Assembly (NCBI GenBank): GCA_004768415.1
Contig: SRMO01000084.1
Span: forward strand, 221,820 to 255,906
DNA: 34,087 nt
Direction: 5' to 3'
Source: Aphanocapsa feldmannii 277cV
GTDB lineage: Bacteria; Cyanobacteriota; Cyanobacteriia; PCC-6307; Cyanobiaceae
The notes under the pieces were generated by a model. That model made no database searches and was not told where the DNA came from. It worked only from the letters and a program-made list of their open reading frames with translations. This document shows positions 8,807-30,334 of the stretch, in pieces (the first letter of the stretch is position 1; each line of letters opens with the position of its first letter). Position numbers and translations under genes: made by a program.

Positions 8807-9324
8807 TCTGTGACCTTGACTGCGGGCTCAAGCCAGGTTCCATGGGCTCTGCCGGCAGTGTTGTGCGGTCACGGAGCGGGGCAGGTGATCGCCGGCCAGC
8901 GACGCCAGCGCAGGGATCCGCAGTGATGTGAGCAGGTGCCAGCCCCGACAGGAGAAACAACCCCGCAGGGCATCGTTCTTTGCGTGGCAGGTAATCGTTC
9001 ACTTCGTTAACAGGAAAGCGGCGCAGATGAACCCGGAAACTGCTATTTACAGAACTTGAGAAAGTAGGCCTGGCCTGGCCTGGCATTGAACGTTTGTAAC
9101 TGCCTCGCTGAGGACTGGAATGCGGCCCCTATAGTCCCTTCTGTGGTCCCCTCTCCAGGGGTCAACTTCCCAGTGCTGGAGTGGGATCTCGGCTTTTCGA
9201 GCACCCAGTCGGCCTGGCTGTTGCAGCCACGGGCGGTTGTTTCGGCGACCGTCGCTCCAAGGGGGTCAGCCGGTTCGTCGGATGCCCCTCACCCACCCCT
9301 CGCCTTACCTCGGGGAACGTCTCG

Positions 9325-11652
9325 ATGACCATCAGCCCACCGGAGCGTGGAGCCAAGGCCAAGGTCGTGGTGGACCGGGATCCTGTGCGCGTCTCTGCTG
9401 ACGTGCTCGGCACCCCCGGTCATTTCGACCGCAACCTCAAGAAGGGTCCAAAAACCACCACGTGGATTTGGAACCTTCACGCCCGCGCTCACGACTTCGA
9501 CAGTCACACGAGCGATCTTGAAGACATCTCCCGCAAGATCTTCAGCGCTCACTTCGGCCACCTGGCCGTTATCTTCATCTGGCTGAGCGGCGCCTTCTAC
9601 CATGGTGCCCGCTTCTCCAATTACAGCGGCTGGCTTGCAGATCCCCTGCAGGTCAAACCCTCCGCACAAGTTGTCTGGCCGATCTTCGGTCAGGAAATTC
9701 TCAATGGTGACGTGGGAGCTGGCTTCCACGGCATTCAGATCACCTCCGGTCTGTTCCAGCTCTGGCGGGCCGCCGGTTTCACCAATGAAAGCCAGCTGCT
9801 TGCCACGGCAATTGCAGCTCTGGTCTGCGCCGGCCTGATGCTCAATGCCGGTGTTTTCCACTATCACAAAGCAGCACCCAAGCTCGAGTGGTTCCAGAAT
9901 GTTGAGTCGATGCTCAACCACCACTTGGCCGGACTTTTCGGTCTCGGTTCGCTGGCCTGGGCCGGTCACCTGATTCACGTGTCACTGCCTGTGAATCAGC
10001 TGATGGATGCCATCGATGCGGGCGAGCCCCTGACGCTCGACGGCACGACCATCGCAAGCGTGGCCGACATTCCGCTGCCCCATGAGTTCTTCAATCAGGA
10101 CCTGATCGCGCAGCTGTTCCCCGGCTTCAATGCAGGCGTCGGTGCCTTCTTCAGTGGTAACTGGGCCGCCTACAGCGACTTCCTCACCTTCAATGGCGGT
10201 GTGAACCCCGTGACCGGTGGGCTCTGGATGACCGACATCGCCCACCACCACGTGGCCATCGCGGTGATGTTCATCATCGCCGGTCACATGTACCGCACCA
10301 ACTGGGGCATCGGTCACAGCATCAAGGAAATCCTCGAGGGTCAGAACGGTGACCCGCTGCTGTTCCCCGCCTCCAACGGTCACAAAGGGCTCTACGAGTT
10401 CATGACCACCTCCTGGCACTCCCAGCTGGCCATCAACCTGGCCATCGGTGGTTCCGTGAGCATCGTCGTGGCGCACCACATGTACGCGATGCCTCCCTAT
10501 CCGTACCTGGCCGTGGATTACCCCACGATGCTGAGCCTGTTCACCCATCACATGTGGATCGGCGGCTTCATGATCTGCGGTGCCGGCGCCCATGCCGCCA
10601 TCGCCATGGTGCGCGACTATGACCCCGCCCAGAACATCGACAACGTTCTGGATCGGGTGCTCAAGGCCCGCGATGCCATCATCAGCCACCTGAACTGGGT
10701 GTGCATCTGGCTGGGCTTCCACGCCTTCGGCCTCTATGTCCACAACGACACCATGCGTGCCCTGGGTCGTACCCAGGACATGTTCAGTGATTCCGCGATC
10801 CAGCTGAAGCCGATCTTCGCTCAGTGGATCCAGGGTCTCCATGCCGCTGCTGCCGGTGGCTACACCTCCAATGGCTGGCCCCTCGGTGCTCCCAATGCCC
10901 TGGCTGCCAGCAGTGAGGTGTTCGGTGGCAATCTCGTCGCCGTCGGTGGCAAGGTTGCCGTCGCTCCCATTGCTCTGGGCACGGCGGACTTCATGGTCCA
11001 CCACATCCACGCCTTCACGATTCACGTGACGGTGCTGATCCTGCTCAAGGGCGTCCTCTACGCACGTAACTCCCGTCTCATCCCTGACAAGGCCAACCTC
11101 GGCTTCGCCTTCCCCTGTGATGGCCCCGGCCGCGGCGGCACCTGCCAGGTTTCCGGTTGGGACCATGTGTTCCTGGGCCTCTTCTGGATGTACAACTCCA
11201 TCTCGATTGTCATCTTCCACTACTCCTGGAAGATGCAGAGCGATGTCTGGGGCACTGTGCTTCCTGATGGCACCGTCAAGCACATCACCAACGGCAATTT
11301 CGCCGAAAGTGCTGTGACGATCAACGGTTGGCTGCGTGACTTCCTGTGGGCCCAGGCCACCCAGGTGATCAACAGCTACGGATCTTCCTCCAGTGCCTAT
11401 GGCCTGATGTTCCTGGCCTCCCACTTCGTCTGGGCCTTCAGCCTGATGTTCCTCTTCAGTGGCCGTGGCTACTGGCAGGAGCTGATCGAGTCCATCGTCT
11501 GGGCTCATAACAAGCTGAAGGTGGCTCCCGCCATCCAGCCCCGCGCGCTGAGCATCACCCAGGGTCGCGCTGTCGGCCTCGCCCACTATCTGCTGGGCGG
11601 CATCGGCACCACCTGGGCCTTCTTCCTCGCCCGCACCCTTGCGGTCGGTTGA
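9325..11652 (+). CDS. psaA: Photosystem I P700 apoprotein A1
   Basis: [38 protein letters not shown]...; [29 protein letters not shown] track start 9181 extended upstream; ATG at 9325 chosen. Confidence 0.99.
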
Positions 11653-11670
11653 CCTGACACCTCCCCTCCA

Positions 11671-13884
11671 ATGGCAACGAAATTTCCTTCGTTCAGCCAG
11701 GGTCTGGCGCAGGACCCGACGACCCGTCGTATCTGGTACGGCATCGCCACGGCTCACGACTTCGAGAGCCATGACGGAATGACGGAGGAGCGGCTTTACC
11801 AGAAGCTGTTCTCCACCCACTTCGGTCACCTGGCGATCATCGGCCTCTGGGTCTCCGGAAACCTGTTCCACGTCGCCTGGCAGGGCAACTTTGAGCAGTG
11901 GGTCGCCGATCCGCTGCACGTGCGTCCCATCGCCCACGCGATCTGGGATCCTCACTTCGGCCAGGGCGCCATCGCGGCCTTCACCCAGGCCGGCGCCAGC
12001 TCACCTGTGAACGTTGCCTATTCGGGCATCTACCACTGGTGGTACACGATCGGCATGCGCACCAATGCCGAGCTGTACATGGGATCCATCTTCATGATGA
12101 TCCTCTCGGCCTGGACGCTGTTCGCGGGCTGGATGCACCTCCAACCCAAGTTCCGCCCATCCCTGGCCTGGTTCAAGAACGCCGAGTCGCGCCTGAACCA
12201 CCACCTTGCGGTGCTGTTCGGCTTCAGCTCCATCGGCTGGGCCGGTCACCTGATTCACGTCGCCATCCCCGAGGCCCGCGGTCAGCACGTTGGTTGGGAC
12301 AACTTCCTCACCACGGCTCCGCATCCTGCCGGTCTGGCGCCGTTCTTCACCGGCAACTGGGGTGCCTACGCCCTGAACCCCGACACCCTTGACCATGCCT
12401 TCGGCACGGCCGATGGTGCCGGCACCGCGATTCTCACCTTCCTGGGTGGTTTTCACCCCCAGACAGAAGCGCTCTGGCTCACGGACATTGCCCATCACCA
12501 CCTGGCGATCGGCTGTCTGTTCGTGATCGCCGGTCACATGTACCGCACCAACTTCGGTATCGGTCACTCGATCAAGGAGATCCTCGAGGCCCACAACCCT
12601 CCCAGTGACACTCCAGGTGACCTGGGTGCAGGCCACAACGGCATCTTCGACACCCTCAACAACTCCCTGCACATGCAGCTGGGCCTGGCCCTTGCCAGCC
12701 TCGGCACGGTGACCAGCCTTGTCGCCCAGCACATGTATTCGATGCCGTCCTACGCGTTCATCGCCAAGGACTACACCACGCAGGCAGCCCTTTACACCCA
12801 CCACCAGTACATCGCCATCTTCCTGATGTGCGGTGCCTTCGCCCACGGCGCGATCTTCTTCATCCGCGATTACGACCCGGCCGCCAACAAGAACAACGTT
12901 CTGGCCCGGATGCTGGAGCACAAGGAAGCCGTCATCAGCCACCTCAGCTGGGTGTCTCTGTTCCTTGGCTTCCACACCCTCGGTCTCTACGTCCACAACG
13001 ACGTGGTAGTCGCTTTCGGTACACCCGAGAAGCAGATGCTGGTCGAGCCGGTGTTCGCCCAGTTCATCCAGGCTGCCAGCGGCAAGGCCATCTACGGGTT
13101 TGACGTCCTGCTGGCCAATGCCAACAGTGCCGCTTCCCTGGCCAGCCAGAACATCCCCGGCGACCACTACTGGCTGGCTGCCATCAATGGCAACACCGAT
13201 GTGTTCATGCCCATCGGTCCTGGTGATTTCCTTGTGCACCATGCCATCGCCCTGGGCCTCCACACCACGACACTGATCCTGGTGAAAGGTGCCCTGGACG
13301 CCCGTGGTTCCAAGCTGATGCCCGACAAGAAGGACTTCGGCTACTCCTTCCCCTGTGACGGCCCCGGCCGTGGTGGCACCTGCGACATCTCTGCCTGGGA
13401 CTCCTTCTACCTGGCTCTGTTCTGGGCGCTGAACACCATCGCCTGGACCACCTTCTACTGGCACTGGAAGCACCTTGCCGTCTGGCAGGGCAACGTTGCC
13501 CAGTTCAACGAATCGAGTACCTACCTGATGGGTTGGTTCCGCGACTACCTGTGGCTGAACAGCTCTCAGTTGATCAACGGCTACAACCCCTTCGGCGCCA
13601 ATAACCTCGCCATCTGGGCATGGATCTTCCTGGCCGCTCACCTCTGCTGGGCCGTCGGCTTCATGTTCCTGATCTCCTGGCGCGGTTACTGGCAGGAGCT
13701 GATCGAGACCATCGTCTGGGCCCACCAGCGCACCCCGCTGGCCAACCTGGTCGGCTGGCGTGACAAGCCCGTCGCTCTCTCGATCGTTCAGGCCCGCTTG
13801 GTCGGTCTGACCCACTTCACTGTGGGCTTCTTCGGAACCTTCGCAGCGTTCCTGATCGCCTCCACAGCAGGTAAGTTCGGCTGA
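11671..13884 (+). CDS. psaB: Photosystem I P700 apoprotein A2
   Basis: [62 protein letters not shown]. Confidence 0.99.
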
Positions 13885-14236: not shown

Positions 14237-14563
14237 TTAACTTGGCCAGGTTGTTGAGGGCTGCTGTTCAGTTCTTGCCATTGACATCAAAAGGGCCCGC
14301 CAAGGCGCTATATATCGAAATGCCCAAGACCAATGCTCAGGTTTAGTGTAAATCAACTCGCTAATCTCCTGATCAGAAAGAGAAGGAAATTCAGCTGCGC
14401 TAGCCCGCAAGAAGTCTACCGCAGTAAAGTGATAGCCTAGACGCTTGCCAATTTCCACAATATCATCGATCGAGCGAGCCGCCTTGAGAGACTTCATTTT
14501 GCCATGATCCATTGACAGATCACCTATAAACTTGGCAAGGTCTGTCTGTTTATTTTGAGTCAT
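14237..14563 (-). CDS. Nif11-domain-like small protein (ORF track start 14578; ATG at 14563 preferred)
   Basis: LAKFIGDLSMDHGKMKSLKAARSIDDIVEIGKRLGYHFTAVDFLRAS resembles Nif11 domain pattern (Phe-Leu region, then GYxFtxxdl); ATGA overlap with upstream ORF. Confidence 0.65.
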   Translation of the reverse strand: MTQNKQTDLAKFIGDLSMDHGKMKSLKAARSIDDIVEIGKRLGYHFTAVDFLRASAAEFPSLSDQEISELIYTKPEHWSWAFRYIAPWRALLMSMARTEQQPSTTWPS

Positions 14564-14877
14564 GCGTTTAGATACCAAATTGCGTATTGATTAGATTTGC
14601 AGACAATCTGCAAAACCAGTGGCCCGCCTGAACAACGAAGAAACCTCCACTTCAGGCCATTCTCGCAGCAGCCAGAGTCGATAAGGTGCTTTGCCGTTCT
14701 CGTTGCCTGCTCAAGTGGTATAGCTGTTGTATACAGCTTTGGGTGAACCTCATGGATCAGTTTCTCTATGTCTTTTGTTTGCGAATTGTGAAAAAGTTTG
14801 TCCTGAACTCCTGTGTTGGTCTTGAGGCGCTCGCCAAAGTGCCAAACGAACTGGTCCTGGTCAATCATTGAATTCAT
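14560..14877 (-). CDS. Small ORF of unknown function, possibly divergent Nif11-like N-terminus
   Basis: MNSMIDQDQFVWHFGERLKTNTGVQDKLF...; start overlaps pebB stop (ATGA), stop overlaps next start (ATGA). Confidence 0.55.
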   Translation of the reverse strand: MNSMIDQDQFVWHFGERLKTNTGVQDKLFHNSQTKDIEKLIHEVHPKLYTTAIPLEQATRTAKHLIDSGCCENGLKWRFLRCSGGPLVLQIVCKSNQYAIWYLNA

Positions 14878-15638
14878 GGCAAACCAGATTGAGAGCTTGT
14901 TTGAGCAGATTCCAAGTCAAACAGAAAGCCGTGGATGTAGGCCTCGGTCCAGTCACTGCCGTAGAAACGGGTCAGCATTCCTCTGGCCGGATCCTTTTCG
15001 GCCCGATAGTCGGTATAGCGCCGTTGACCCGCCAGTAATGCGTCACTGCGGTCCCCTTGCACAGGCCTGGCTTCACAGACCAGATCCAGATAGATCTCAA
15101 GATAGTCCACGAAGGCCGGAAACACAGTGGTCTCCAAGCTGGTCTCGTCATCCAGCGGCAGGCGGGTCCAAAGGAAGCCTTTCGAGAAATAAGGCTCCGC
15201 TTCCTGCGGAATGGGACCACCATCCGGGAGCCTGGACCGCCAGCGCTCAAACACCGGCTGCAGGCGTTTCCAGACAGGGGCCGTGTGGGAAGCATCGCGC
15301 TTGAGCACCGGCTGCAGGTCAAGGGCAATCAGATGACCCCCTGGCAAGCTCACCAAGTCGGCACCGAAGAAGGGCAAATCGTAGTGATGGTCAGGGTTGA
15401 TTACAAAATTCAGCACATGGGGAGGGCCTTCGGCTTCCACACAGGCGGCTCGGGCCTGGCGGATAGCCGGGGCCTTCACTGCCCAGCTGGTGGTGGTCAC
15501 TTCACTCCGCCGTGATCTCGGCCCCGTCATTGCCCGCTTCTGCTCGAAGCCAGCGGGAATGGGGTAGGACGTCAGCGCCAGACGCTCAGTCATGCGTGAC
15601 TTGGCGAGATCCAGAAAGCGCTTCCACAACCAACTCAT
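14874..15638 (-). CDS. pebB: Phycoerythrobilin:ferredoxin oxidoreductase
   Basis: Ferredoxin-dependent bilin reductase motifs: VINPDHHYDLPFFGADLVSLPGGHLIALDLQPV, YTDYRAEKDPARGMLTRFYG. Confidence 0.93.
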   Translation of the reverse strand: MSWLWKRFLDLAKSRMTERLALTSYPIPAGFEQKRAMTGPRSRRSEVTTTSWAVKAPAIRQARAACVEAEGPPHVLNFVINPDHHYDLPFFGADLVSLPGGHLIALDLQPVLKRDASHTAPVWKRLQPVFERWRSRLPDGGPIPQEAEPYFSKGFLWTRLPLDDETSLETTVFPAFVDYLEIYLDLVCEARPVQGDRSDALLAGQRRYTDYRAEKDPARGMLTRFYGSDWTEAYIHGFLFDLESAQTSSQSGLP

Positions 15639-16369
15639 CGGCCGGCTCCCTTGTTGGCGGCCACGGCGACTGGCGTGGCCGAACCCGGGAAGAGGAATTC
15701 ATGCACGAAGCGATCGGCCCACTCCTTGCCGAAATAGCTGCAGAACAGGCCGTGGGCCGGGTCCTTCTCGGCACTGTAGATGTCGTAGTCCAGCTGCAGG
15801 GCGGCCACTTCAGCCCGCAGGGCCGGGTTGGGAATCTGGGCATCGTGCATGGCCCAGTAGGCATCGAGCAACTGCCCGAAGGCCGCCGCGAGAGGGTCCT
15901 GCAGCGTGGAGATGGTGCCCCGGGCAAACAGCAACCAGGGGGAGAAGTAGCGGTTGGCGTCATAGCTGCGCATCTCCTCACCTGCCGCAAAGGCGGGGTA
16001 GCTACCCTGCAGGCGGCGGAGTGGCGCAAGGTAGTGCTCCAGGTAGGCGGGTTCCTGCTTCAGTGGTTGGAAATCCATCACCGCCACAAGCTTGTCGCGG
16101 GTGCCGAAACTGAGCAGGTCGATGCCCAGCAACGGCTGTTCGCGGTCATGGTCCGGGTAGGCCACGGCATTGAGCACCTGAACGGCAGCACCGGCATCCA
16201 ACCGGGTGGCCCGCAGCCGTGCGATGCCCGGCAGTTGCCAGGCCTGGCTGCGTATCCGTCCCTGTTTGCGGCTGGAATCAGCCGCATCGAGCCCCTGCGG
16301 CAGGGTCAATGCTGTGCCCCCCCGGGCAGCCACGTCGGCTGCCAGCCGTTCGAGGAACGCTTCGAACAT
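15635..16369 (-). CDS. pebA: 15,16-dihydrobiliverdin:ferredoxin oxidoreductase (ATG at 16369; ORF track start 16549 probably too early)
   Basis: FDBR motifs GIDLLSFGTRDKLVAVMDFQPL, YDIYSAEKDPAHGLFCSYFGKEWADRFVHEFLFP; paired with pebB. Confidence 0.93.
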   Translation of the reverse strand: MFEAFLERLAADVAARGGTALTLPQGLDAADSSRKQGRIRSQAWQLPGIARLRATRLDAGAAVQVLNAVAYPDHDREQPLLGIDLLSFGTRDKLVAVMDFQPLKQEPAYLEHYLAPLRRLQGSYPAFAAGEEMRSYDANRYFSPWLLFARGTISTLQDPLAAAFGQLLDAYWAMHDAQIPNPALRAEVAALQLDYDIYSAEKDPAHGLFCSYFGKEWADRFVHEFLFPGSATPVAVAANKGAGR

Positions 16370-16598
16370 CGCCTGGCCACAAGACCACGTCACAGTATGA
16401 CTCGGTGGCACGCCTGAGGAAACCCGTGCCAGCCGGCAAAGCGCGCCCTGCCAGTGGACAGGATCCCTTGCAGGGACTTGAGGCAGGAGCTCCAACGCGA
16501 CGCTTTGCAGCGTTCCTTTGGCGACAACAGACGAAAACAGCCGGTGCAAGCCTTCACAGGCAACCAGAGCGCTTCACGCAGGCGTTTTCCCGGACAGG

Positions 16599-17156
16599 TC
16601 AGCAGCGGGCCAGTGACGCCTGCCGCAGCGCCGCGAAGTCGGCATCCGGGCTGCAACGGATCTCCGTGCAGTAGCTCATCAGGCTGGGTCCATCCATCAG
16701 CCGCACGCTGCCCACCCGCACCCGCACGTCGTCATTGATGAACCAACAGCGTTCCACGCCGGTATTGCGGTCGTAATCGGTGTGGATGCTCAGCACGCCA
16801 TCGCAGCTGAACTGATAGCGGCTGATCACCGGGCGGGCCTCCACATAGCCCACATCGCGCATCAGACGACCGCGCAGCGGATTGTCGGTGTCCGGTAGAT
16901 CCACCAGCACCGCGGAATACTTCTCATCGGGGGGGCCTTGTCTGAAGGTGTCCTGCCAGTTGAAGCGGGCGCCACAGGTGGCCGCCGCCAGGGGCAGGCC
17001 CAGCTGCTCGCAGACCCGCGCCACGCTGGCGTCTTCATGGGGCAACAGGCTGACGATCAGGTTCGACTCGCCCGACTCGTCCTCCGCAGCATCGAAGTGG
17101 TGCACGGCGCGCTGGGAGAGCCAGGTGCCGGCACTCTTGGCAAAGAAGGCGTCCAT
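16599..17156 (-). CDS. CpeS/CpcS-family chromophore lyase (start MDAFFAKS at 17156 preferred; ORF track 17201)
   Basis: FFAKSAGTWLSQRAVHHF, SRYQFSCDGVLSIHTDYDRNTGVERCWFINDDVRVRVGSV typical of CpcS/CpeS/CpeU lyases. Confidence 0.8.
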   Translation of the reverse strand: MDAFFAKSAGTWLSQRAVHHFDAAEDESGESNLIVSLLPHEDASVARVCEQLGLPLAAATCGARFNWQDTFRQGPPDEKYSAVLVDLPDTDNPLRGRLMRDVGYVEARPVISRYQFSCDGVLSIHTDYDRNTGVERCWFINDDVRVRVGSVRLMDGPSLMSYCTEIRCSPDADFAALRQASLARC

Positions 17157-17248
17157 CCGCAGGGGAGGCTGCACGGCAACGGCTGGTGACGACGGTCCCA
17201 TGCTGCAGGGCCGTGGGGGAAGCTTGTCGGCAGCAGCTTCGAAGGTTC

Positions 17249-18007
17249 ATGCAGGGTCGCGCCCCGCTTTTCGGCTATGGCATGCAGGCAGCGGGCGCCG
17301 ATCTGCAGAGCTGCGACGGCTGCGATCTGGAGCTTGTCAATGCCGACTTCAGCGGCGCCGACCTGCGCGATGCCCGCTTCCGTGGCGCCGATCTGCGCGG
17401 GGTCGATCTGCGCGATGCCATGGCCTCGGCGGACTTCAGCGGCGCCAACCTCTGTCGGGCCGACCTGCGCGCTGCCGATCTCCGTGGCGCAGTGCTGCGC
17501 GACGTCCGCCTGGAGCTGGCCCGCTACGACCGTGACACCCGCTGGCCCGAGGGCTTCGATTTCGTCCGCAGTGGTGCAGTGGGTCCGGGAGCATCCCTTG
17601 CTGGCAGGTTCCTCAACACGGCTGATCTGCGCGGTATGGACCTGCGCGGGGCCCGCATGCTGGGTATCTATATGAGTGGCGCCGACCTGCGCGGCGCCCT
17701 GCTCCAGGACATCGGCTTCGCCAACGGTGACCTCCGCCGCAGCCGCTTCTGTGGGGCGCTGATGAACGGCTGCCGTTTCGGTTATGTGCAGGCGGAGCAG
17801 TGTGATTTCCGTGGCGCCGACCTCAGCGGCGCCGACTTCAGCGAGGTGGGCAGCATTGCCGGCGCCATCTTCAGCGGTGTGGTGGGGCTGGAGACCATTC
17901 GCGACCACCTGCTCAGTCGCCACTACAGGGAACTGGACTGCTGGAACAGCCTGGCCCGCTGCACCACCCGGGAGAGCATCGAGGCCAGGCAGGGAGCGGC
18001 GCCATGA
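17249..18007 (+). CDS. Pentapeptide-repeat protein (start MQGRAPLFG at 17249; ORF track 17186)
   Basis: Tandem A(D/N)LxG-type repeats: ADFSGADLRDARFRGADLRGVDLRDA..., NTADLRGMDLRGARMLG, CDFRGADLSGADFSE. Confidence 0.9.
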   Translation: MQGRAPLFGYGMQAAGADLQSCDGCDLELVNADFSGADLRDARFRGADLRGVDLRDAMASADFSGANLCRADLRAADLRGAVLRDVRLELARYDRDTRWPEGFDFVRSGAVGPGASLAGRFLNTADLRGMDLRGARMLGIYMSGADLRGALLQDIGFANGDLRRSRFCGALMNGCRFGYVQAEQCDFRGADLSGADFSEVGSIAGAIFSGVVGLETIRDHLLSRHYRELDCWNSLARCTTRESIEARQGAAP

Positions 18008-19266
18008 GTGGCGGGCGTTTCGACAACCTTTTCGCCTGGATGGATGAACCAGAGGCGATCCGCTGCCTGCGCACCCCTGCCGACCAGCTGGACATCCCCG
18101 CAGCTCAATACGTGGCCGCCACACGCCTGGGGGCTGCCAGCAGTGAGGCCTCTCTGCTCGCCCTGCTCGATGCCGCCCGTTTTCGCGGGGACGACATCAA
18201 CAACCGGTTGACGCGGCGCAAGGCCCTGGAGGCCCTGGGGCGGCGACGGGATCCCCGCTCCCTGGCGCTGGTGCTCAAAGCCCTGGCCGCTGACGATCCT
18301 GCGGCCGTGGTCAATGCCGCCAACAGCGTCACCGCCCTGGCACCGCTGGACGACACCCAGGGTGCTGCTGCCGTGACCGCCCTCTGCCACGGCCTGCGGG
18401 GGCCCGGCACCCAGCAACGGGCGGTGGTGCAGGCCCTCACACGCCTGGGGGCCAGCGAGGTCGAAGCCCGCATCCGCTCCTTGCTGGGGGACCCCGATCC
18501 CATCCTGGATGGGGCTGTACGGGCCTATCTCGCCAGGGTCTGCAACGCCCGTGACCTGCTGGGCCCCGTGCTGCAGCGCCTGGGCGACAGCGAGCCCGGC
18601 CAGCGGCGCACGGCGGTGATCGATCTCGGCCTGGCAGGGGATCCCGGCCAGCTGGCGGCGGTGGTGCACACGGCCACCTCCATGCCCCTGCGTGCTCTGG
18701 CGGCCTTTCCCCTGGCCCGCCAGGCCCTGGCAGAGCACCATGACCCCGCCATGGTGGCGTCTCGGCTGGATAGCCTCTGCAGCGACGACCCGCGCACCCT
18801 GCGGCTGCTGGGGGATCCCTGCCCCGAGGACGACAGCCCTGAAGCGTTGCTGCGGCTGATGCTGCAACGGGATGAGAACGCCCAGTACGGCGCGGCCCGC
18901 AGGCAGCTCGCCCTGCCCCGCAGCGAACAGCTGGATCTGGCCGGGCGGATTCGTGCAGACCACTACAGCGATTACGGCGCCAACTATCTGCTGATGCGGC
19001 TGATCGGCCTGGGCAGACTGGAGCAGCTGCGGGATGTCATCGGGGAGGGCCTCAGGGAAACGGCGCCGCAGTACGCGAAGTCGCGCATCGCCGCCGCCAT
19101 GGCCAGTGCGGAGCTCGACCTCGGCGAGCACATCCCCCTGCTGCGGCAGTTGAGCCGGCAGAGCCGCAGTGATGGCCTGCGCTGGGCTTCTGCCCATGCC
19201 CTCCAGCGACTGGCCGGCGAGAGCGATCCCGCTGGCCGGGCTCTGTCCTTGCGGGCTGCCGTCTGA
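18004..19266 (+). CDS. cpeY: HEAT-repeat phycoerythrobilin lyase, CpeY (or MpeY) family
   Basis: MSGGRFDNLFAWMDEPEAI..., HEAT-like repeats, DHYSDYGANYLLMRLIGLG, YAKSRIAAAMASAELDLGEHIPLL; adjacent to PE genes. Confidence 0.88.
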   Translation: MSGGRFDNLFAWMDEPEAIRCLRTPADQLDIPAAQYVAATRLGAASSEASLLALLDAARFRGDDINNRLTRRKALEALGRRRDPRSLALVLKALAADDPAAVVNAANSVTALAPLDDTQGAAAVTALCHGLRGPGTQQRAVVQALTRLGASEVEARIRSLLGDPDPILDGAVRAYLARVCNARDLLGPVLQRLGDSEPGQRRTAVIDLGLAGDPGQLAAVVHTATSMPLRALAAFPLARQALAEHHDPAMVASRLDSLCSDDPRTLRLLGDPCPEDDSPEALLRLMLQRDENAQYGAARRQLALPRSEQLDLAGRIRADHYSDYGANYLLMRLIGLGRLEQLRDVIGEGLRETAPQYAKSRIAAAMASAELDLGEHIPLLRQLSRQSRSDGLRWASAHALQRLAGESDPAGRALSLRAAV

Positions 19267-19365: not shown

Positions 19366-19992
<627 letters not shown>

Positions 19993-20040: not shown

Positions 20041-20538
20041 ATGAAGTCCACCATCACCACCGTGATCGCGGCGGCCGACAACGCTGCTCGTTTCCCCAGC
20101 GCCTCCGACCTGGAGTCCGTCCGTGGTTCCATGGAGCGCGCTGCCGCCCGCATGGAAGCCGCTGACAAGCTCGCCGCCAACTACGACGCCGTAGCCCAGG
20201 AGGCAGTAGACGCTGTCTACGCCACGAACCCCAACGGCAACCTGGGTCGTCAGCCCCGTGCCTGCGCCGTTGAGGGCAAGGACAAGTGCAAGCGTGACTT
20301 CGTTCACTATCTGCGCCTGATCAACTACGCCCTGGTGACCGGCGGCACCGGCCCTCTGGACGAGATGGCCATCAACGGTGCCAAAGAGGTCTACGGCGCC
20401 CTCAGCATCGACACAGCCACCTATGTGTACGGCCTCAACAAGCTCCGTAACCGTGGCTGTGCACCTCGTGACATGAGCTCCCAGGCTCTGTCCGAGTACA
20501 ATGCCGCTCTCGACTACGTCGCCAACTCCCTGGGCTGA
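20041..20538 (+). CDS. cpeA: Phycoerythrin alpha subunit with Cys75, Cys83 and Cys140
   Basis: [30 protein letters not shown]...; [39 protein letters not shown]...[14 protein letters not shown]. Gene symbol by operon position; sequence is MpeA-like. Confidence 0.93.
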
Positions 20539-20565: not shown

Positions 20566-20590
20566 AGGGGGGGCTTATGCCCCCCTTTTT
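20566..20590 (+). terminator. Rho-independent terminator after cpeBA
   Basis: GGGGGGC-TTAT-GCCCCCC followed by TTTTT. Confidence 0.85.
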
Positions 20591-20892: not shown

Positions 20893-21777
20893 ATGACCTT
20901 CGGTCCAGCTTCCGTGCTCGGTGTCGAGCGCTTTGAGGCCATTGCGCCTTACGAGGAGTATCAGGCCAGCACTCCTGAAGAGCGAGAGATCCTGATCAGT
21001 GCGGCCTACCGACAGGTCCTGGGCAATGCCTACGTGATGGATAGCGAGCGTCAGGCGGTGGAGGAGTCCCAGTTCAAGCTGGGCCGCCTGAGCATGCGCG
21101 AATTTGTCCGTGCCTTGGCCAAGAGCGACCTCTATCGCAGCCGCTTCTTCGAAAGCTGCAGCCGCTATCGCTACATAGAGCTGGCCTTCAAGCATTTGCT
21201 TGGCCGCGCGCCTGACAGTTTTGAAGAAATGCGTCGCCATGCCGAGCGTCTTGATGCCCGAGGCTACGAGGCAGACATCGATTCCTTCATCGATAGCCCC
21301 GAATACCAGGAGCGTTTCGGCGAAGACGCTGTTCCCTATCTGCACGGTTGGAAGACCGGTCCCGGCAAGAGCATGCGGGAATTCACCTGGATGTTCCAAC
21401 TCACCCGTGGCGCCTCCAGCAGCGACCTGAAGGGGGATTTTGCTCGGCGCAGTGCCAGACTTGGCCGCGCTGCCTACCAGGACCTGTCATTGCCGGTGGT
21501 ATCACCCTCCGGTGTGGGCGGCAATGGCAAGGGTTACAGCTTCCGTCCCACCACCCGCGCTGACGAGCCCCAGAACCGCAATGGTGCAGGTGGCGGTGAT
21601 CAGGGGAAAGTCTTCCGGGTGGAGGTCACTGGCTATATGGCCAACAAGGTCGCCAAATTCTCGCGTTACCGCAAGAGCAATCAGGTTTTCTTCGTCCCCT
21701 TCAACAAGCTCTCTGAGCAGTTCAAGCGCATCCATCGGGAAGGTGGAGTGATCGCCAGCATCACCCCCGTCAACTGA
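20893..21777 (+). CDS. cpeC: Phycoerythrin rod linker with one PBS_linker_poly domain plus C-terminal CpcD-like domain
   Basis: MTFGPASVLGVERFE..., AAYRQVLGN, RYIELAFKHLLGRAP, FGEDAVPYLHGW; C-term FRVEVTGYMANKVAKFSRYRKSNQVFFVPFNKLSEQFKRIHREGGVIASITPVN. Confidence 0.9.
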   Translation: MTFGPASVLGVERFEAIAPYEEYQASTPEEREILISAAYRQVLGNAYVMDSERQAVEESQFKLGRLSMREFVRALAKSDLYRSRFFESCSRYRYIELAFKHLLGRAPDSFEEMRRHAERLDARGYEADIDSFIDSPEYQERFGEDAVPYLHGWKTGPGKSMREFTWMFQLTRGASSSDLKGDFARRSARLGRAAYQDLSLPVVSPSGVGGNGKGYSFRPTTRADEPQNRNGAGGGDQGKVFRVEVTGYMANKVAKFSRYRKSNQVFFVPFNKLSEQFKRIHREGGVIASITPVN

Positions 21778-21822: not shown

Positions 21823-23955
21823 ATGAGCAACATCGGTTCCGAGCAGTTTAAGCGCGACGACAATCTGCTGCAGCCCGGCTTCAGTGAAGAGGATCTGCAG
21901 CAGGTGATCCGATCCACCTATCGCCAAGTTCTCGGCAATGTTGGCATAACCGATGCCATGCGCCTGAAGGCGGCAGAGAGCCAGCTGCGCAATGGTCGCA
22001 TTTCTGTCAAGGAATTTGCCACCATGGTTGCCAGTTCCGATCTGTATCGAAGCATCTACTACGATAAGTCGGCTCCGGTACGCTATGTCGAGATCACTTA
22101 CAGTCATTTACTTGGCCGTCCTCCCAGAGATCAATTAGAGGTCCAAGCAGCGATTGAAATGATCAACAGTCAAGGTGTAGATGCATTTGTCGCTAATCTA
22201 GTACAAAGTAGAGAATATGATAGTGCGTTTGGGCTTCAACAAGTTCCTTCCGTGCGCACATCGGAAAGCAAAGTAGGGGAGCCTCAGGTATCCTTCAACC
22301 GCACCTATAAGCTTACTCATGGACCAGGTTCTAGCGATACAATTGACTCAACAAGCAAGCTTGAGAACTCTATTCAAGGCAAAGGGGATAATAAAATCCG
22401 TCGTTACGAAGATGTGACTTCCGGTTTTATTTTTTCTCACATTTCCAGAAAAGGAAAGCTATCTCCATTTGCTTGGTCAGCTAATTATGCTGACTTCCCA
22501 GATACTCGCACGCAGAAATACAATCTTGGTGTGGGGCGTGAGCTAGACACGGATCCTGTGGTGTTGAGCCCCAGTCGAGATAACATTGATGAAGTTATCA
22601 ATATGGCCTATCGCCATGTTTTTGGTGGCATCGGCATCTACGCTGCAGATCGCTGTGAACGTTCAGAATCCGAACTTCGTAACGGTCAAATAACTGTTCA
22701 AAGCTTTGTTCAGGAACTCGGAAAATCAGACGTTTATCAGCGCCTCTTCCTCGATCGCACAACGCCTCACCGCTTCGTTGAGTTCAACTTCAAGCACTTC
22801 CTCGGTCGCCCTCCCATCGATGAAGCTGAGATCAGCGAGCATGTGAAGCTGCTTCGGCAGCAGGGCTACAAGGCAGAAATCAACAGCTATGCCACCACAG
22901 ACGAATACGCCCAAACCTTTGGTGAAGACACTGTTCCATACCTTCGGTCCATATTCACGATACAGGGCCTGCCACAGGACACCTTCAACAAGACCTTCCG
23001 CCTCACTCCTGGCGCAGCTGGTAGTGACTTCGGTAGCATCGTCGGCACCACTAGTCGCACCATTGGCGATCTGCTGGGTTATCCCAGCTACTCCATACAA
23101 TTGCCCAGCAGCGGCTTTCCTCTGCCCAAAACCACTGGATTCGCCAACAACAAGTTCAGTGGCTCGGTTCCTGTAAAATCCACCCCTTGGGCTTCGTTTG
23201 GTGTGGGTGAGCAAGATCAGACCCGCTTCGAGCGCTTCCCGAACTCAACAGCTGAGGACAACAGGCTGTTGCTATACCAAATCTACAAGTTTGTACTGGG
23301 GAATCCTCACTTGATGTCCGCTCAGCGTGACAGCAAGCTTGAATCACGTTTCATCAATGGGCAGCTTTCAGTCAAAGAGTTTGTTCGCCATCTCTGTAAG
23401 AGCCAACTCTACCTTGATCGCTTCTTTTCTGGCTGCGCTCCCTATCGGTTCATTGAGCTCTGCTTCAAACACATCCTCGGCCGGGCTCCCGCCGATCAGC
23501 AGGAGATCGGACCCGCCATGGATGTGGTCGTCCGCAAGGGTGTCGACGCCGCTATTGATCACCTCATGAACAGTGGTGAGTACGACATGGCCTTCGGCGA
23601 AGACGTGGTGCCCTACCTGCGCGGCATTAGCACCGGTGAGGGGCGCAGCATGGCTACCTTCAACCGCACTCTTGCCACCGTTGGTGGCTATGCCGGCACC
23701 GACAAGGCCCAGAAGAAATCCACCTTGGTGGATCTGCGTACAGACCGCACCATCCCTGCCTGCAGCAATGCGGTCAGCGGCGCCATTGATGCGGCCGGCA
23801 AGCGCTACGAGATCGTTGTCAGTGGTCAGCGGGCTGGCAGTCGCCGCCGCTTGGCCACTAGCACCTACGTTGTTTCCGGCGACAACATCTCAAGCCAGCT
23901 CGCGTTCATCCACCGCAGCAGCGGTCGGATTGTGAGCGTGATGGAGATCACCTGA
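21823..23955 (+). CDS. Large phycobilisome rod linker, three PBS_linker_poly-like domains plus C-terminal CpcD-like domain (CpeE-like position)
   Basis: Three repeats of (T/A)YRxVxGxxG...VRYVEITYSHLLGRPP / HRFVEFNFKHFLGRPP / YRFIELCFKHILGRAP; each followed by an SxEY/TxEY...F motif; C-term YEIVVSGQRAGSRRR...QLAFIHRSSGRIVSVMEIT. Confidence 0.93.
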   Translation: MSNIGSEQFKRDDNLLQPGFSEEDLQQVIRSTYRQVLGNVGITDAMRLKAAESQLRNGRISVKEFATMVASSDLYRSIYYDKSAPVRYVEITYSHLLGRPPRDQLEVQAAIEMINSQGVDAFVANLVQSREYDSAFGLQQVPSVRTSESKVGEPQVSFNRTYKLTHGPGSSDTIDSTSKLENSIQGKGDNKIRRYEDVTSGFIFSHISRKGKLSPFAWSANYADFPDTRTQKYNLGVGRELDTDPVVLSPSRDNIDEVINMAYRHVFGGIGIYAADRCERSESELRNGQITVQSFVQELGKSDVYQRLFLDRTTPHRFVEFNFKHFLGRPPIDEAEISEHVKLLRQQGYKAEINSYATTDEYAQTFGEDTVPYLRSIFTIQGLPQDTFNKTFRLTPGAAGSDFGSIVGTTSRTIGDLLGYPSYSIQLPSSGFPLPKTTGFANNKFSGSVPVKSTPWASFGVGEQDQTRFERFPNSTAEDNRLLLYQIYKFVLGNPHLMSAQRDSKLESRFINGQLSVKEFVRHLCKSQLYLDRFFSGCAPYRFIELCFKHILGRAPADQQEIGPAMDVVVRKGVDAAIDHLMNSGEYDMAFGEDVVPYLRGISTGEGRSMATFNRTLATVGGYAGTDKAQKKSTLVDLRTDRTIPACSNAVSGAIDAAGKRYEIVVSGQRAGSRRRLATSTYVVSGDNISSQLAFIHRSSGRIVSVMEIT

Positions 23956-24025: not shown

Positions 24026-24787
24026 ATGCCCCTTTGGCTTGAATCAGAGTCTCCCGCTGAGCTCTTCGCCCAGCGCTCCGAGACTGAACTCCAGGACACT
24101 ATTCGCCGTGTCTACCGACAGGTTCTCGGCAACATCTCTCTGACTGGTTACGAGCGCTGCAGCCAAGCTGAGTCCCTGCTTCGCAATGGCAGCAGCACCG
24201 TGCGGGAATTCGTCTCAGCTGTAGGTCTGTCCGAAACCTATCGCGATCTTTATTTCGCACCCAACGGCCAGTATCGATTCATTGAACTCAACTTCAAGCA
24301 CTTCCTTGGTCGTGCTCCCCGCAACCAGCAGGAGATCAGCGAGCATGTGCTGATCTGGAACACCCACGGCTACGAGGCAGAGATCCTCTCCTACATCAAT
24401 AGTGAGGAATATGCCAAAGTGTTCGGCGAGGATATCGTTCCTTATCCCCGCACGGATACCTCTGAGATTGGTCAGAACAAGGACTACATTCGCACCATCA
24501 ACCTTGATCGAGGTCGGGCCAGTTCTGACCGTAAGCGTGGTACTGCTGCGATCCTCCAGACAGCTATCAACTCAACGGCGTCAGCTGACGCGCCTCGCAC
24601 CATCAACAACGGTGTGTCCAATCGCTTGGCCCGCTTTGAAGTGGTCTACAGCCTGAGCCGCAACACTGCCGTCAACCGCCGTGCTGGCTCCCACAGCCAG
24701 CGGGTCGATTTTGATCAGCTCACCAAAACGGTGCAGTCGATTCATCGTCGTGGTGGTTCCATTCGCTCTATCCGTCCCATCGCCTGA
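24026..24787 (+). CDS. cpeD: Phycoerythrin rod linker, one PBS_linker_poly domain plus CpcD-like C-terminus
   Basis: RVYRQVLGN, YRFIELNFKHFLGRAP, VFGEDIVPYPR; C-term FEVVYSLSRNTAVN...TKTVQSIHRRGGSIRSIRPIA. Confidence 0.87.
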   Translation: MPLWLESESPAELFAQRSETELQDTIRRVYRQVLGNISLTGYERCSQAESLLRNGSSTVREFVSAVGLSETYRDLYFAPNGQYRFIELNFKHFLGRAPRNQQEISEHVLIWNTHGYEAEILSYINSEEYAKVFGEDIVPYPRTDTSEIGQNKDYIRTINLDRGRASSDRKRGTAAILQTAINSTASADAPRTINNGVSNRLARFEVVYSLSRNTAVNRRAGSHSQRVDFDQLTKTVQSIHRRGGSIRSIRPIA

Positions 24788-25062: not shown

Positions 25063-25089
25063 GCTTTGTTCGCGGCTCTCCCACTGCTG

Positions 25090-25617
25090 ATGTCTCCTCT
25101 GATCGACGAATTTGTGCGGCGTTCCCTGGGGACATGGGAAAGCAAGCGTAGCGGCCACAACCTTGCTTTTCGGCACGTGGAGGAGGTGGAGTCCAAGATT
25201 GTGATCTCTCCGCTGCCCCTGGATGCTCCAGGCCTGGCAGAGCTCCTGACAAGCCACGGCATCGCTATCGTCGCCATCACCAGCCCTTTTCACATGGCTT
25301 GGGAGGGCAGTTCGGATTGGGACGAGGACGCCACCAGCAAGGGAGAATGCACCTTGGTACCCGTGCCCAAGGATGACCACAGTGGACTGCTGCTGCGCAG
25401 CAGCGGCTACACCGAGCAGATTCCCGCTGTCGGAACCTATCGGTTCAGCAATGACGGCTGCTTCACACTGATCACACCCTATGAAGGCTCCAGCGCCGAG
25501 GAGCGAATCTGGTTCGCCACAGACGATGTGCGTATGCGTGTCTCGATGATGCGCACGCAGTCCGGCCGCGGGGTGCTGCAGGCCTCCTTCTCCTCGGAGA
25601 TCCGTCGTGGTTGCTGA
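25090..25617 (+). CDS. cpeS: CpeS-family chromophore lyase
   Basis: MSPLIDEFVRRSLGTWESKRSGHNLAF, GTYRFSNDGCFTLITPYEGSSAEERIWFATDDVRMRVSMM; followed by cpeT and cpeR as in cpeCDESTR operons. Confidence 0.87.
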   Translation: MSPLIDEFVRRSLGTWESKRSGHNLAFRHVEEVESKIVISPLPLDAPGLAELLTSHGIAIVAITSPFHMAWEGSSDWDEDATSKGECTLVPVPKDDHSGLLLRSSGYTEQIPAVGTYRFSNDGCFTLITPYEGSSAEERIWFATDDVRMRVSMMRTQSGRGVLQASFSSEIRRGC

Positions 25618-26278
25618 GCCCATCGTTGAACTCACCGGTACGCTGATCCCCATGGATCGGGCATCCTTGTTGCGGTTCTGCAGGTGGCTCGCTGGCAGTT
25701 TCTCCAATCACCGCCAAGCTGCTGAGAACCCGGTGGATTTCGCCCATATCCATATAGCATTCAGGCCTTTGCCAGAGGAGCATTTCGGTTCGGGTTGGTA
25801 CTACTCTGAGCAGGCTTACGACTACGACATCTGGACCCCCTATCGTCAGGGGGTTCATCGGGTCGAGTACCGGGGTGATCACGCCTTCGTGCATAACTTT
25901 GGGCTTCCCGATCCCGTGGCAGCTGCTGGGGCCAGCAGGGATGACGATATCCGTGCACAGTTGCGTCCGCAGGGCCTCAGTCCCCGTGCAGGTTGTGCCA
26001 TGGTTTTCCGGCTCACCGCGGAAGGCCATTTCATCGGTAGACAAGAGCCTGGCTGCAAGTGCCTGATTCCCCGCAATGGCCGGATCAGCTACCTGTTCAG
26101 CGAGGTGAGGTTCGATGAACAGCACTGGGTCAGCCGTGATCGAGGCTTCGACCCCGAGAGCCATGAACAGCTCTGGGGGTCCGAACATGGCCATCTGGTC
26201 TTTGAACGCACTGCATCATTCGCCGCCGAGGTGCCCGAGCACTGGCTTGCCGAGCTCAGCTCAGGGTCCCGGGTGTGA
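25607..26278 (+). CDS. cpeT: CpcT/CpeT-family chromophore lyase (alternative start 25652)
   Basis: RWLAGSFSNHRQAAENPVDFAHIHIAFRPLP, YDIWTPYRQGVHRVEY, EPGCKCLI, RGFDPESHEQLWGSEHGHLVFERT. Confidence 0.88.
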   Translation: MVAEPIVELTGTLIPMDRASLLRFCRWLAGSFSNHRQAAENPVDFAHIHIAFRPLPEEHFGSGWYYSEQAYDYDIWTPYRQGVHRVEYRGDHAFVHNFGLPDPVAAAGASRDDDIRAQLRPQGLSPRAGCAMVFRLTAEGHFIGRQEPGCKCLIPRNGRISYLFSEVRFDEQHWVSRDRGFDPESHEQLWGSEHGHLVFERTASFAAEVPEHWLAELSSGSRV

Positions 26279-26281
26279 GGC

Positions 26282-26599
26282 ATGGCCACACGACTCTCAC
26301 CCAGCGAAGCCACAGCAAAGCTGAAGGGCTGGATGCGTTCCCGCCATCTGATCTGCTGTGGCCATTTTTTTGTGATGGAATCGGTGGATCAGTCTCTGAT
26401 CGACCGTTTCTGCAACTGCATCGAGATCCTCGGGGGCACCCTGATCACTGTGGAGGCCAGTGGTCGCTGGTCCACGGGGCCCGGCCGCAAGGTGGTGCTT
26501 CTGCGGGCCCGGGCCACGCTGCTGGGCAGGTCCAGCGAACTGATCACCTACTGGGCAGAGCGAGGGGGGCGGCACACCCGCTTCGAAGAATCCGGCTGA
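26282..26599 (+). CDS. cpeR: CpeR-like phycoerythrin operon regulator
   Basis: KLKGWMRSRHLICCGHFFVMESVDQSLIDRF...TGPGRKVVLLRARATLL...YW; CpeR-like core and operon position after cpeT. Confidence 0.78.
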   Translation: MATRLSPSEATAKLKGWMRSRHLICCGHFFVMESVDQSLIDRFCNCIEILGGTLITVEASGRWSTGPGRKVVLLRARATLLGRSSELITYWAERGGRHTRFEESG

Positions 26600-26876: not shown

Positions 26877-27395
26877 ATGTTCGACGCCTTCACCAAGGTC
26901 GTTGCCCAGGCCGACGCCCGTGGCGAGTTCATCAGCGCTGGTCAGCTTGATGGTCTTGCCGCGATGGTGGCCGAGAGCAACAAGCGCATGGATGCGGTCA
27001 ACCGCATCACATCCAACGCTTCAACCATCGTCGCCGATGCCGCTCGCGCCCTCTTCGCCGAACAGCCTTCACTGATTGCCCCCGGCGGCAATGCTTACAC
27101 CAGTCGCCGCATGGCCGCCTGCCTGCGCGACATGGAAATCATCCTGCGCTACGTCTCCTACGCCATCTTCACCGGTGACGCCAGTGTCCTGGAGGACCGC
27201 TGCCTCAACGGCCTGCGCGAAACCTACCTGGCCCTCGGCACCCCCGGCACCTCAGTCGCCAACGCAGTTGGCAAAATGCGCGATGCTTCAACCGCCATTG
27301 TCAACGACCGCAGCGGTATCACCTCGGGTGACTGCAGCTCACTGATCTCCGAGATCGGCGTCTACTTCGACCGTGCCGCCGCCGCTGTGGCCTGA
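26877..27395 (+). CDS. cpcB: Phycocyanin beta subunit
   Basis: [89 protein letters not shown]. Confidence 0.96.
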
Positions 27396-27440
27396 GACCG
27401 CTCTTCTCCTGACGCGATTCAACCAAGCTTTCCCACGACC

Positions 27441-27929
27441 ATGAAAACTCCGCTCACCGAGGCCGTTGCGGCGGCTGACTCCCAGGCCCGTTTCCTATCG
27501 AGCACCGAAATCCAGAGCGCATTCGGTCGCTTCAACCGCGCCAAGGCCGGTCTCGATGCTGCCAGGGCCCTCACAGCCAAGGCCGATTCCCTGGTCAATG
27601 GAGCCGCCCAGGCTGTCTACAGCAAGTTTCCCTACACCACCCAGATGCAGGGTCCCACCTACGCCTCCACGCCAGAGGGAAAGGCAAAATGCGCACGTGA
27701 CGTCGGCTACTACCTGCGCATGGTCACCTACTGCCTGGTGGCTGGTGGAACCGGCCCGATGGACGAGTACCTGATTGCTGGCCTGGACGAGATCAACCGC
27801 ACCTTTGAACTCTCCCCCTCCTGGTTTGTCGAAGCGCTGAAGTACATCAAGGCCAACCATGGCCTTTCCGGAGATGCCGGTGGTGAAGCCAACGCATATT
27901 TCGACTATGCCATCAACGCGCTAGTCTGA
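27441..27929 (+). CDS. cpcA: Phycocyanin alpha subunit
   Basis: [80 protein letters not shown]. Confidence 0.97.
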
Positions 27930-28137: not shown

Positions 28138-29001
28138 ATGTTTGCCGACCCGTCCCGCGGGGTTGACCCGGGGCAGCCCATCACCGAACAGGAGGCCCTG
28201 GCCAGGCTCCGCCAGCAGGAGGACCCTGGCCAGCGCTATTACGCCGCCTGGTGGCTCGGTCGCATGCGTTCCCGCCATCCCGATGCGGTGCCGCTGCTGA
28301 TCGACGCCCTCGCCGTACGGGGCACTGCCGTTGACTCCGCTGCAGGTGTGAACGAGCCCAACGCCATCGCCCGCAATGCGGCCCGTGCCCTCGGCAAGCT
28401 GGCCGACGCGGCTGCTGTGCCCGCTCTGCTCACAGCCCTGGAAGACCCCGACGACGGACTGCGGGAGGCGGCCGCCCGCTCCCTCGGAGAGCTGGGGGCC
28501 ATCGAGGCCCGCCGGCCCATCAGCCGCCGCCTGGCCACTGGCCCTGAATGGGCTGGCTCCGTGCAGCCGGGCAGCAGTCGCCTGCAGGAACCCTGTGAAG
28601 CCCTGCTGGAGGCCCTCGGCATGATCGGCCTGGCAGGGGAGGACGACCCTGACACGCTGCTGGCGCTGGTGCGTCCCTATGTGGACCATGGTCGCCCCCT
28701 GATCCGTGCGGCGGCCTGCCGCTGCCTGTTCCAGCTCAGCGGCGAGACCCACTGGGTGGAACAGCTCAGGGCCCTGCTGCTCCATGAGCAGCTGCAGGTG
28801 CGGCGGGCTGCGCTGATGGACCTGGCTGCCACCGGCTGGCGGCCGGCCGGCCCCGCCATCGCCGGGACCCTGGCCGAGAACAGCCTCAAGCTGATCGCGC
28901 TGCGGGGGCTTGTCGAGCAGAGCCCGGAGCACGATCCGCAGGCCACCTGGCCGAGCGCTGCCGAGATCGATCTGTTGAATGCCATGGATGCCCTGCTGTG
29001 A
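28138..29001 (+). CDS. cpcE: HEAT-repeat phycocyanin alpha bilin lyase subunit, CpcE/RpcE type
   Basis: YYAAWWLGRMRS, HEAT repeats, NEPNAIARNAARALGKLAD, GDD-type downstream partner. Confidence 0.87.
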   Translation: MFADPSRGVDPGQPITEQEALARLRQQEDPGQRYYAAWWLGRMRSRHPDAVPLLIDALAVRGTAVDSAAGVNEPNAIARNAARALGKLADAAAVPALLTALEDPDDGLREAAARSLGELGAIEARRPISRRLATGPEWAGSVQPGSSRLQEPCEALLEALGMIGLAGEDDPDTLLALVRPYVDHGRPLIRAAACRCLFQLSGETHWVEQLRALLLHEQLQVRRAALMDLAATGWRPAGPAIAGTLAENSLKLIALRGLVEQSPEHDPQATWPSAAEIDLLNAMDALL

Positions 29002-29678
29002 CCGTGAGGCCCCCCAGCGTCATTCCCACGGACCAGGTCGAGGGATTGGTGGCTGCTGTCGAAGCGGCCCAGACCGCCGATGACCTCACCGATGCCGTGG
29101 AAGCACTGGCAGCGGCAGCCCATCCCGATGCTGTTCCCTGCCTGATCGAGGTGCTGGGTTTCAACAACCCCGGCGCGGCTGTGGCGGCGGTCGATGGCTT
29201 GGTGGCCATCGGCGAGCCTGCGGTGGCGGCCATCCTGCGGAACCTTGACGATTACAACTACGGGGCCCGGGCCTGGGGGGTGCGAGCCCTGGCCGGCATC
29301 GGTGATCTGCGCGGTCTGGAGACCCTGGAACGGGCCCTGGCCCAGGACATCGGCCCCAGCGTGCGGCGGGCCGCGGCCAGGGGCATGGGTCAGCTCGATC
29401 CGGTGGGTCTCGGCACCGGGGAGCGCCAGGCCCTGGCCGGGCGGGTGCTGCCCCAGCTGGAAGCAGCCCGGGCCGATGGCGAATGGATTGTCCGCTTTGC
29501 CGTGGCGGTGGGGCTGGAGGGCATGGCCCGCTGGTGGCGACCTGATCCAAGCCAGCGCCTCCTGACAGCCCTGGCAGCCCTGGCCGACAGCGAGCGTGAA
29601 ACAGTTCCCGTGGTCAGGCTGCGGGCCGTGCTGGCCCAGGCCCGTCTGCGGGGCGAGGCCCCCTGGCCTTCACCCTGA
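28998..29678 (+). CDS. cpcF: HEAT-repeat phycocyanin alpha bilin lyase subunit, CpcF/RpcF type
   Basis: NNPGAAVAAVDGLVAIGEPAVAAILRNLDDYNYGARAWGVRALAGIGD; overlaps cpcE end. Confidence 0.88.
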   Translation: MTVRPPSVIPTDQVEGLVAAVEAAQTADDLTDAVEALAAAAHPDAVPCLIEVLGFNNPGAAVAAVDGLVAIGEPAVAAILRNLDDYNYGARAWGVRALAGIGDLRGLETLERALAQDIGPSVRRAAARGMGQLDPVGLGTGERQALAGRVLPQLEAARADGEWIVRFAVAVGLEGMARWWRPDPSQRLLTALAALADSERETVPVVRLRAVLAQARLRGEAPWPSP

Positions 29679-29749: not shown

Positions 29750-30334
29750 ATGGGCAGTCCCCGCCGTCGCCTGCTGGAGCAGCTCTGCGCCACCTTCTCC
29801 AACCAGGCCCAGGCCCTGGCCAATCCGCCCCTCTACGCTCACATCCAGGTGGTGTTTCGCCCAGCACCTCAGCTGGCGGCAGGATCGCTGCTGCTGGAGC
29901 AGGCCTATGCCCTGGATCCGACCCAGCCCTACCGCATCCGCGTGCTGAGGGTCTGCGAGGACAGCCGCGGGCTGATCATCGAGAACAAGGCCATCGTTGC
30001 TGAGCAGCGTTTTCACGGTGCCACGGCCGATCCCAGCCGCATCGCCGCGATCCGTGAGGACGACCTCTGCCTCCTGGAGGGTTGCACCTATCTGGTGGAA
30101 CCTGACGGTGCGGGCTTCTGCGGTGAAGTGGAACCCGGCTGCAACTGCCGCGTGCAGCGCAAGGGCAGCGAGGCTTATCTGGTCAGCAGCTTCCGCGTCG
30201 GGCCGGAGCATCTCGAAACGGTGGATCAGGGCTTCGACCCGGTGACCCACAGCCATCTCTGGGGCTGCCTGGCCGGTCCCTTCGCATTCCGGGTGACCGA
30301 GCGCTTCTGTCATGAGCTGCCACCGGACTGGTGA
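29750..30334 (+). CDS. cpcT: CpcT-type phycocyanin beta chromophore lyase
   Basis: FSNQAQALANPPLYAHIQVVFRPAP, EQAYALDPTQPYRIRVLRV, GLIIENKAI, EPGCNCRV, GFDPVTHSHLWG. Confidence 0.87.
   Translation: MGSPRRRLLEQLCATFSNQAQALANPPLYAHIQVVFRPAPQLAAGSLLLEQAYALDPTQPYRIRVLRVCEDSRGLIIENKAIVAEQRFHGATADPSRIAAIREDDLCLLEGCTYLVEPDGAGFCGEVEPGCNCRVQRKGSEAYLVSSFRVGPEHLETVDQGFDPVTHSHLWGCLAGPFAFRVTERFCHELPPDW

Follow-up and report, generated by a model that had tools for sequence, protein, structure and literature searches.

A predicted phycoerythrin II alpha chain of the marine type encoded by a relative of Candidatus Synechococcus spongiarum

The window analysed here, a stretch of 34,087 nucleotides from Aphanocapsa feldmannii 277cV, carries genes for a phycoerythrin, its rod linkers and bilin lyases, bilin biosynthesis enzymes and phycocyanin. 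The features are given below with coordinates of the window and strand.

14874..15638 (-): pebB, phycoerythrobilin:ferredoxin oxidoreductase (NF009722, 351.3 bits, cutoff 283)
15635..16549 (-): pebA, 15,16-dihydrobiliverdin:ferredoxin oxidoreductase (NF009720, 302 bits, cutoff 263)
16599..17201 (-): second CpeS/U-family lyase, CpeU by position beside pebA (PF09367, 182.5 bits; synteny)
18004..19266 (+): MpeY-family bilin lyase, 420 aa, HEAT repeats, directly upstream of mpeB
19426..19992 (+): mpeB, phycoerythrin II beta chain, 188 aa (297.8 bits, cutoff 275)
20041..20538 (+): mpeA, phycoerythrin II alpha chain, 165 aa (open frame of 165 codons; phycoerythrin alpha model)
20263-20265, 20287-20289 and 20458-20460 (+): codons for Cys75, Cys83 and Cys140 of mpeA
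20893..21777 (+): CpeC-type rod linker, one linker domain (PF00427) plus a CpcD domain (PF01383)
21823..23955 (+): MpeD-type rod linker, 710 aa, three linker domains (three PF00427 stretches)
24026..24787 (+): CpeE-type rod linker (PF00427 and PF01383; synteny)
25066..25617 (+): CpeS-family bilin lyase (PF09367, 183.2 bits)
25607..26278 (+): CpeT-family bilin lyase (PF06206, 191.6 bits)
26282..26599 (+): small protein called CpeR-like for its place behind cpeT (identity of 40-47% with its syntenic marine counterpart; no Pfam or NCBIfam match)
26877..27929 (+): cpcB and cpcA, phycocyanin (TIGR01339 and TIGR01338, above cutoff)
28138..29678 (+): cpcE and cpcF, phycocyanin alpha-84 lyase subunits (NF058502, 225.1, under the cutoff of 330; NF058515, 220.3, cutoff 220)
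29750..30334 (+): second CpeT-family lyase, CpcT or RpcT by position (PF06206, 166.6 bits)

Several smaller observations accompany this list. A G/C hairpin followed by a run of T, resembling a terminator, is seen directly in the sequence right after mpeA (20567..20590, +). Two large open reading frames upstream of the phycobilisome genes (9181-13884, +) look psaA/psaB-like by eye. A Nif11-like small protein (14237-14578, -) scored 22.5 bits against a cutoff of 32.3; in marine strains with phycoerythrin II (PE-II), relatives with 29-38% identity have cpeR on one side and the MpeY-family gene on the other. A pentapeptide-repeat protein (17186-18007, +) overlaps the start of the MpeY-family gene, and in marine strains its relatives (46-57%) precede the CpeC-type linker.

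Translation of 20041-20538 on the plus strand gave a protein with cysteines at positions 75, 83 and 140 and no others. This is the 165-residue phycoerythrin alpha chain described by the sequence-only reading, and the residue contexts match those quoted there, NRGCAPRD around Cys140 and [18 protein letters not shown] included. The protein scored 255.5 bits with the NCBIfam phycoerythrin alpha model (curated cutoff 225), which identifies mpeA as a real gene and excludes a chance match. It shares about 92% identity (90-92%) with the MpeA of named Candidatus Synechococcus spongiarum, mostly 74-77% with marine MpeA (71-73% in a few genomes) and 52-62% with the alpha chains of phycoerythrin I (PE-I). 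A maximum-likelihood tree built from 44 proteins placed it in the MpeA clade (support 97/100) and, within that clade, in a group of sponge symbionts (100/99). The position of the protein could have been driven by Cys75 itself. This was rejected since the MpeA clade persisted (support 100/100) when a smaller tree was built without alignment columns 60-92, those that contain Cys75 and Cys83. MpeA-type matches were present in 69 of the 400 genomes of the family sample. All three cysteines occurred in each of 37 distinct MpeA sequences, while none of 21 other full-length phycoerythrin alpha chains had a cysteine at residues 70-79, and Cys75 as a variant of PE-I was rejected on these counts. The earlier assignment to the MpeA rather than the CpeA type was thus borne out, also by the alpha-subunit tree it had called for: the protein does not fall within CpeA, and PE-I does not commonly have Cys75. 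Judged by sequence, the gene is a genuine marine-type PE-II alpha gene with three predicted pigment-binding cysteines.

The closest known systems are the three Ca. S. spongiarum loci (SH4, L043; LMB bulk15M, L044; SP3, L050), whose MpeA proteins carry Cys75, Cys83 and Cys140 and are sister to the window protein in the tree. The same three cysteines are present in marine Synechococcus MpeA (WH7803, L075; RCC307, L062; 73-76% identity). CpeA proteins have the same fold and length class, and their Cys82 and Cys139 correspond to Cys83 and Cys140 of MpeA. This holds also for the CpeA encoded on contig C60 of the window genome (G000), which, however, has only 57% identity with the window protein and no Cys75.

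The beta chain encoded by the adjoining mpeB gene has cysteines at 50, 61, 73, 82, 109, 137 and 169. It belongs to the MpeB clade (support 99/97) and groups with S. spongiarum (100/98). Bilin cysteines of PE-II are present at 50/61, 82 and 169, the last having been matched to marine position 159 by eye on the beta alignment. As in S. spongiarum, Cys73 is present and Cys60 is absent, whereas MpeB from marine strains WH7803 and RCC307 has Cys60 and lacks Cys73. In the wider sample, Cys73 was kept in 44 of 44 beta chains without Cys60, the type to which the window protein belongs, and in 0 of 27 with the ICCEN motif that contains Cys60. Because Cys73 is kept and Cys60 is absent, the sponge-clade MpeB is, as far as the sequences tell, less altered from CpeB than marine MpeB.

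The MpeY-family lyase was compared with the related enzymes of marine strains. Assignment to CpeY was rejected, as the protein reached only 158.9 bits with the CpeY model (cutoff 600) and grouped with MpeY, MpeZ and MpeW against CpeY with support of 100/100; a better CpeY candidate is encoded on contig C80 (430 bits). Together with its counterpart in the sister genome G008 the window lyase forms a deep, basal branch of the MpeY/Z/W family. Trees in which the sponge lyases were constrained to join either MpeY alone or MpeZ/W alone were rejected by the AU test, a result partly due to one MpeZ-like sequence nesting among MpeY; hence these lyases are placed only at the base of the family. MpeY has been reported in all PE-II strains (PMC2246261, excerpts), and in marine ones, including WH7803 and RCC307, the MpeY-family gene lies just before mpeB as it does in the window. 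The S. spongiarum loci differ in this respect: no match to the window lyase was found beside mpeB, and the G008 copy is located on another contig. In Synechococcus RS9916, MpeY attaches phycoerythrobilin to Cys83 of MpeA (PMC7948978, excerpts). The window lyase has the motif DYG at residues 323-325. A glycine after the active tyrosine goes with phycoerythrobilin lyase activity, as in MpeW, and a valine with lyase-isomerase activity, as in MpeQ (PMC9705338, excerpts), and DYG disfavours a lyase-isomerase of the MpeZ/MpeQ kind. Histidine at beta-141, which has been tied to phycoerythrobilin at beta-50/61 (PMC9705338, excerpts), is found in both phycoerythrin beta chains of the genome. By these published rules, both derived from marine Synechococcus and extrapolated here, phycoerythrobilin would be predicted at alpha-83 and beta-50/61 (PMC9705338, excerpts). 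The corresponding phenotype would be that of a green-light specialist with low phycourobilin content.

The genes directly downstream of mpeBA encode linkers of the CpeC, MpeD and CpeE types, as they do in S. spongiarum. The CpeC-type protein has 60-65% identity with the syntenic marine linker and about 75% with that of S. spongiarum. The 710-residue MpeD-type linker has three domains, whereas its relatives, including those of S. spongiarum, have two and align from about residue 211 on. The extra domain is N-terminal (residues about 1-212) and has no cysteine; 82 of the 400 sampled genomes gave a match, and in none of them did another match extend over the first 210 residues. Sequence comparison did not reveal in the sponge-clade MpeD-type linkers, that of the window among them, the N-terminal cysteine pair of marine MpeD, the role of which is dealt with in PMC2246261 (excerpts). 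A query of the window genome with an MpeC-type linker from RCC307 gave matches only from residue 69 on, so the N-terminal cysteine region of MpeC was not found there. The cysteines of the phycourobilin type that occur in linkers of marine PE-II were therefore found neither by the MpeC query of this genome nor in the sponge-clade MpeD-type linkers. Since MpeB in addition keeps Cys73 and has no Cys60, assembly may yield a complex different from marine PE-II.

The sequence-only reading had taken the window alpha chain as the sole phycoerythrin alpha of its genome. This holds within the window, but the genome search recovered a second phycoerythrin alpha chain on contig C60 with cysteines at 59, 82, 96 and 139. 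Its gene adjoins its own beta gene, both proteins pass the curated phycoerythrin models, and the pair (cpeBA, PE-I) is accompanied by cpeZ. Contamination is an unlikely source of C60: cpeZ, cpeA, cpeB, an unnamed gene, a phycobiliprotein-like gene and pgk are grouped in the same way there and in G008, and the GC content is 65% compared with 64% for the window. Because of this shared grouping and the similar GC content, C60 is most likely native to the genome. Two genes from cpeB, C60 encodes a 201-residue phycobilisome-domain protein (6405-7010, L009; PF00502, 110.9 bits) that stays under every NCBIfam cutoff and has a 60% relative at the equivalent place in G008. In a search of relatives, all seven genomes with an MpeA match, the window genome included, also had a second, CpeA-like match.

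Pigment type III combines cpeBA and mpeBA in one gene cluster with an MpeC that has an N-terminal cysteine region and with the lyase MpeU (PMC6363710). The window genome has both gene pairs, and the RCC307 query described above did not recover that MpeC region from it; its mpeBA lies on C84 and its cpeBA on C60, and thus not in one cluster. The assembly, a draft of 100 contigs, does not give the distance between the two loci. In G008 they likewise lie on separate contigs (C24 and C4), unlike in marine Synechococcus, where PE-I and PE-II genes are found within about 6-7 kb. The surroundings of mpeBA in the window had been described as a cpe-type cluster. This is true of its appearance only, as marine PE-II strains, too, have these linkers and the cpeS-cpeT-cpeR stretch in the neighbourhood of mpeBA, so that such a setting is no mark of a cluster restricted to PE-I. 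A proposed match to the phycoerythrin cluster of brackish Baltic picocyanobacteria did not hold up either. The Baltic type IIB cluster resembles the window in combining phycocyanin and phycoerythrin genes, but it contains PE-I only and lacks mpeBA (PMC4139726, PMC6363710, excerpts), and the brackish sites yielded no PE-II (PMC4139726, excerpts).

Taken together, we are highly confident that mpeA encodes the alpha chain of PE-II in a genome related to S. spongiarum that has its PE-II genes in a phycocyanin rod cluster and its PE-I genes elsewhere, and that MpeA and MpeB would form discs carrying six bilins. The cysteines, the orthology, the two phycoerythrins, the lyase family and its motif are read from the sequences themselves. 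MpeA and the adjacent MpeB would form the PE-II discs of a phycobilisome rod built on phycocyanin, with a putative load of six bilins per alpha-beta pair, at alpha 75, 83 and 140 and at beta 50/61, 82 and 169. The lyase encoded beside mpeB most likely places phycoerythrobilin on alpha-83, and the PE-I from C60 is probably situated between the PE-II discs and phycocyanin, as in marine strains. The putative third alpha bilin at Cys75 would increase absorption of blue-green light and pass the energy inward via PE-I and phycocyanin. For the identity of the chromophores, the order of the discs and the path of energy transfer, this is what we infer.

The sequence-only reading had instead envisaged a picocyanobacterium whose single phycoerythrin stands between CpeA and MpeA, as an intermediate or as a form that predates the duplication. 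The lone phycoerythrin pair within the window and the CpeB-type Cys73 of MpeB fit that idea, and the latter is the one respect in which the word intermediate applies. We nevertheless regard it as highly improbable, given that the alpha and beta chains nest inside MpeA and MpeB, that an ordinary PE-I pair is present separately with cpeZ in a gene order as in G008, and that the sister genome has the same two phycoerythrins. We also give very little credence to recent horizontal transfer of mpeBA from marine Synechococcus. Transfers of phycoerythrin clusters between picocyanobacteria have been reported (PMC6363710, excerpts), but the window proteins and those of S. spongiarum form a separate clade outside the marine sequences (100/99 for MpeA, 100/98 for MpeB) and the lyase of the sponge clade branches deeply.

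A different question is whether Cys75 carries a bilin at all in this lineage. If the matching lyase were missing, PE-II would bind five bilins, and a genome search indeed found no MpeZ-like second MpeY-family gene and a single MpeU/MpeV-family match, on C80, which fits MpeU or MpeV. An enzyme for Cys75 of MpeA is not named in the literature as far as it was surveyed, which was in part. On the other hand, Cys75 is invariant in the sponge clade and in marine MpeA, and strain WH7803, which has PE-II, is listed with neither mpeU nor mpeZ (PMC2246261, Table 3, excerpts). We therefore consider a bilin-free Cys75 unlikely and retain the six-bilin PE-II with a separate PE-I as the preferred reading.

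The main result is thus a corrective one: an ordinary MpeA in a genome with two phycoerythrins. That S. spongiarum, whose lineage has been reported as sister to the free-living picocyanobacteria, has retained both cpeBA and mpeBA was already published (PMC6363710, excerpts). Our partial, incomplete literature survey turned up no earlier report of the ancestral traits of MpeB, of the absence of the linker cysteines or of a linker with three domains. These features suggest a tentative order for the assembly of PE-II, one that we hold possible without favouring it: Cys75 of the alpha chain and an MpeY-type lyase would have come first, remodelling of the beta chain (loss of Cys73, gain of Cys60), phycourobilin linkers and lyase-isomerases would be confined to the marine lineage, and the rod of the window organism would have been rebuilt with the three-domain linker. 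If this is true, a single chain of that linker would hold three discs, and rod length would change in a way that can be tested. The genome also offers a small natural set of lyases in which to seek the enzyme that loads alpha-Cys75. PE-II serves the harvesting of blue-green light in marine picocyanobacteria, and its presence in a relative of S. spongiarum supports an early duplication.
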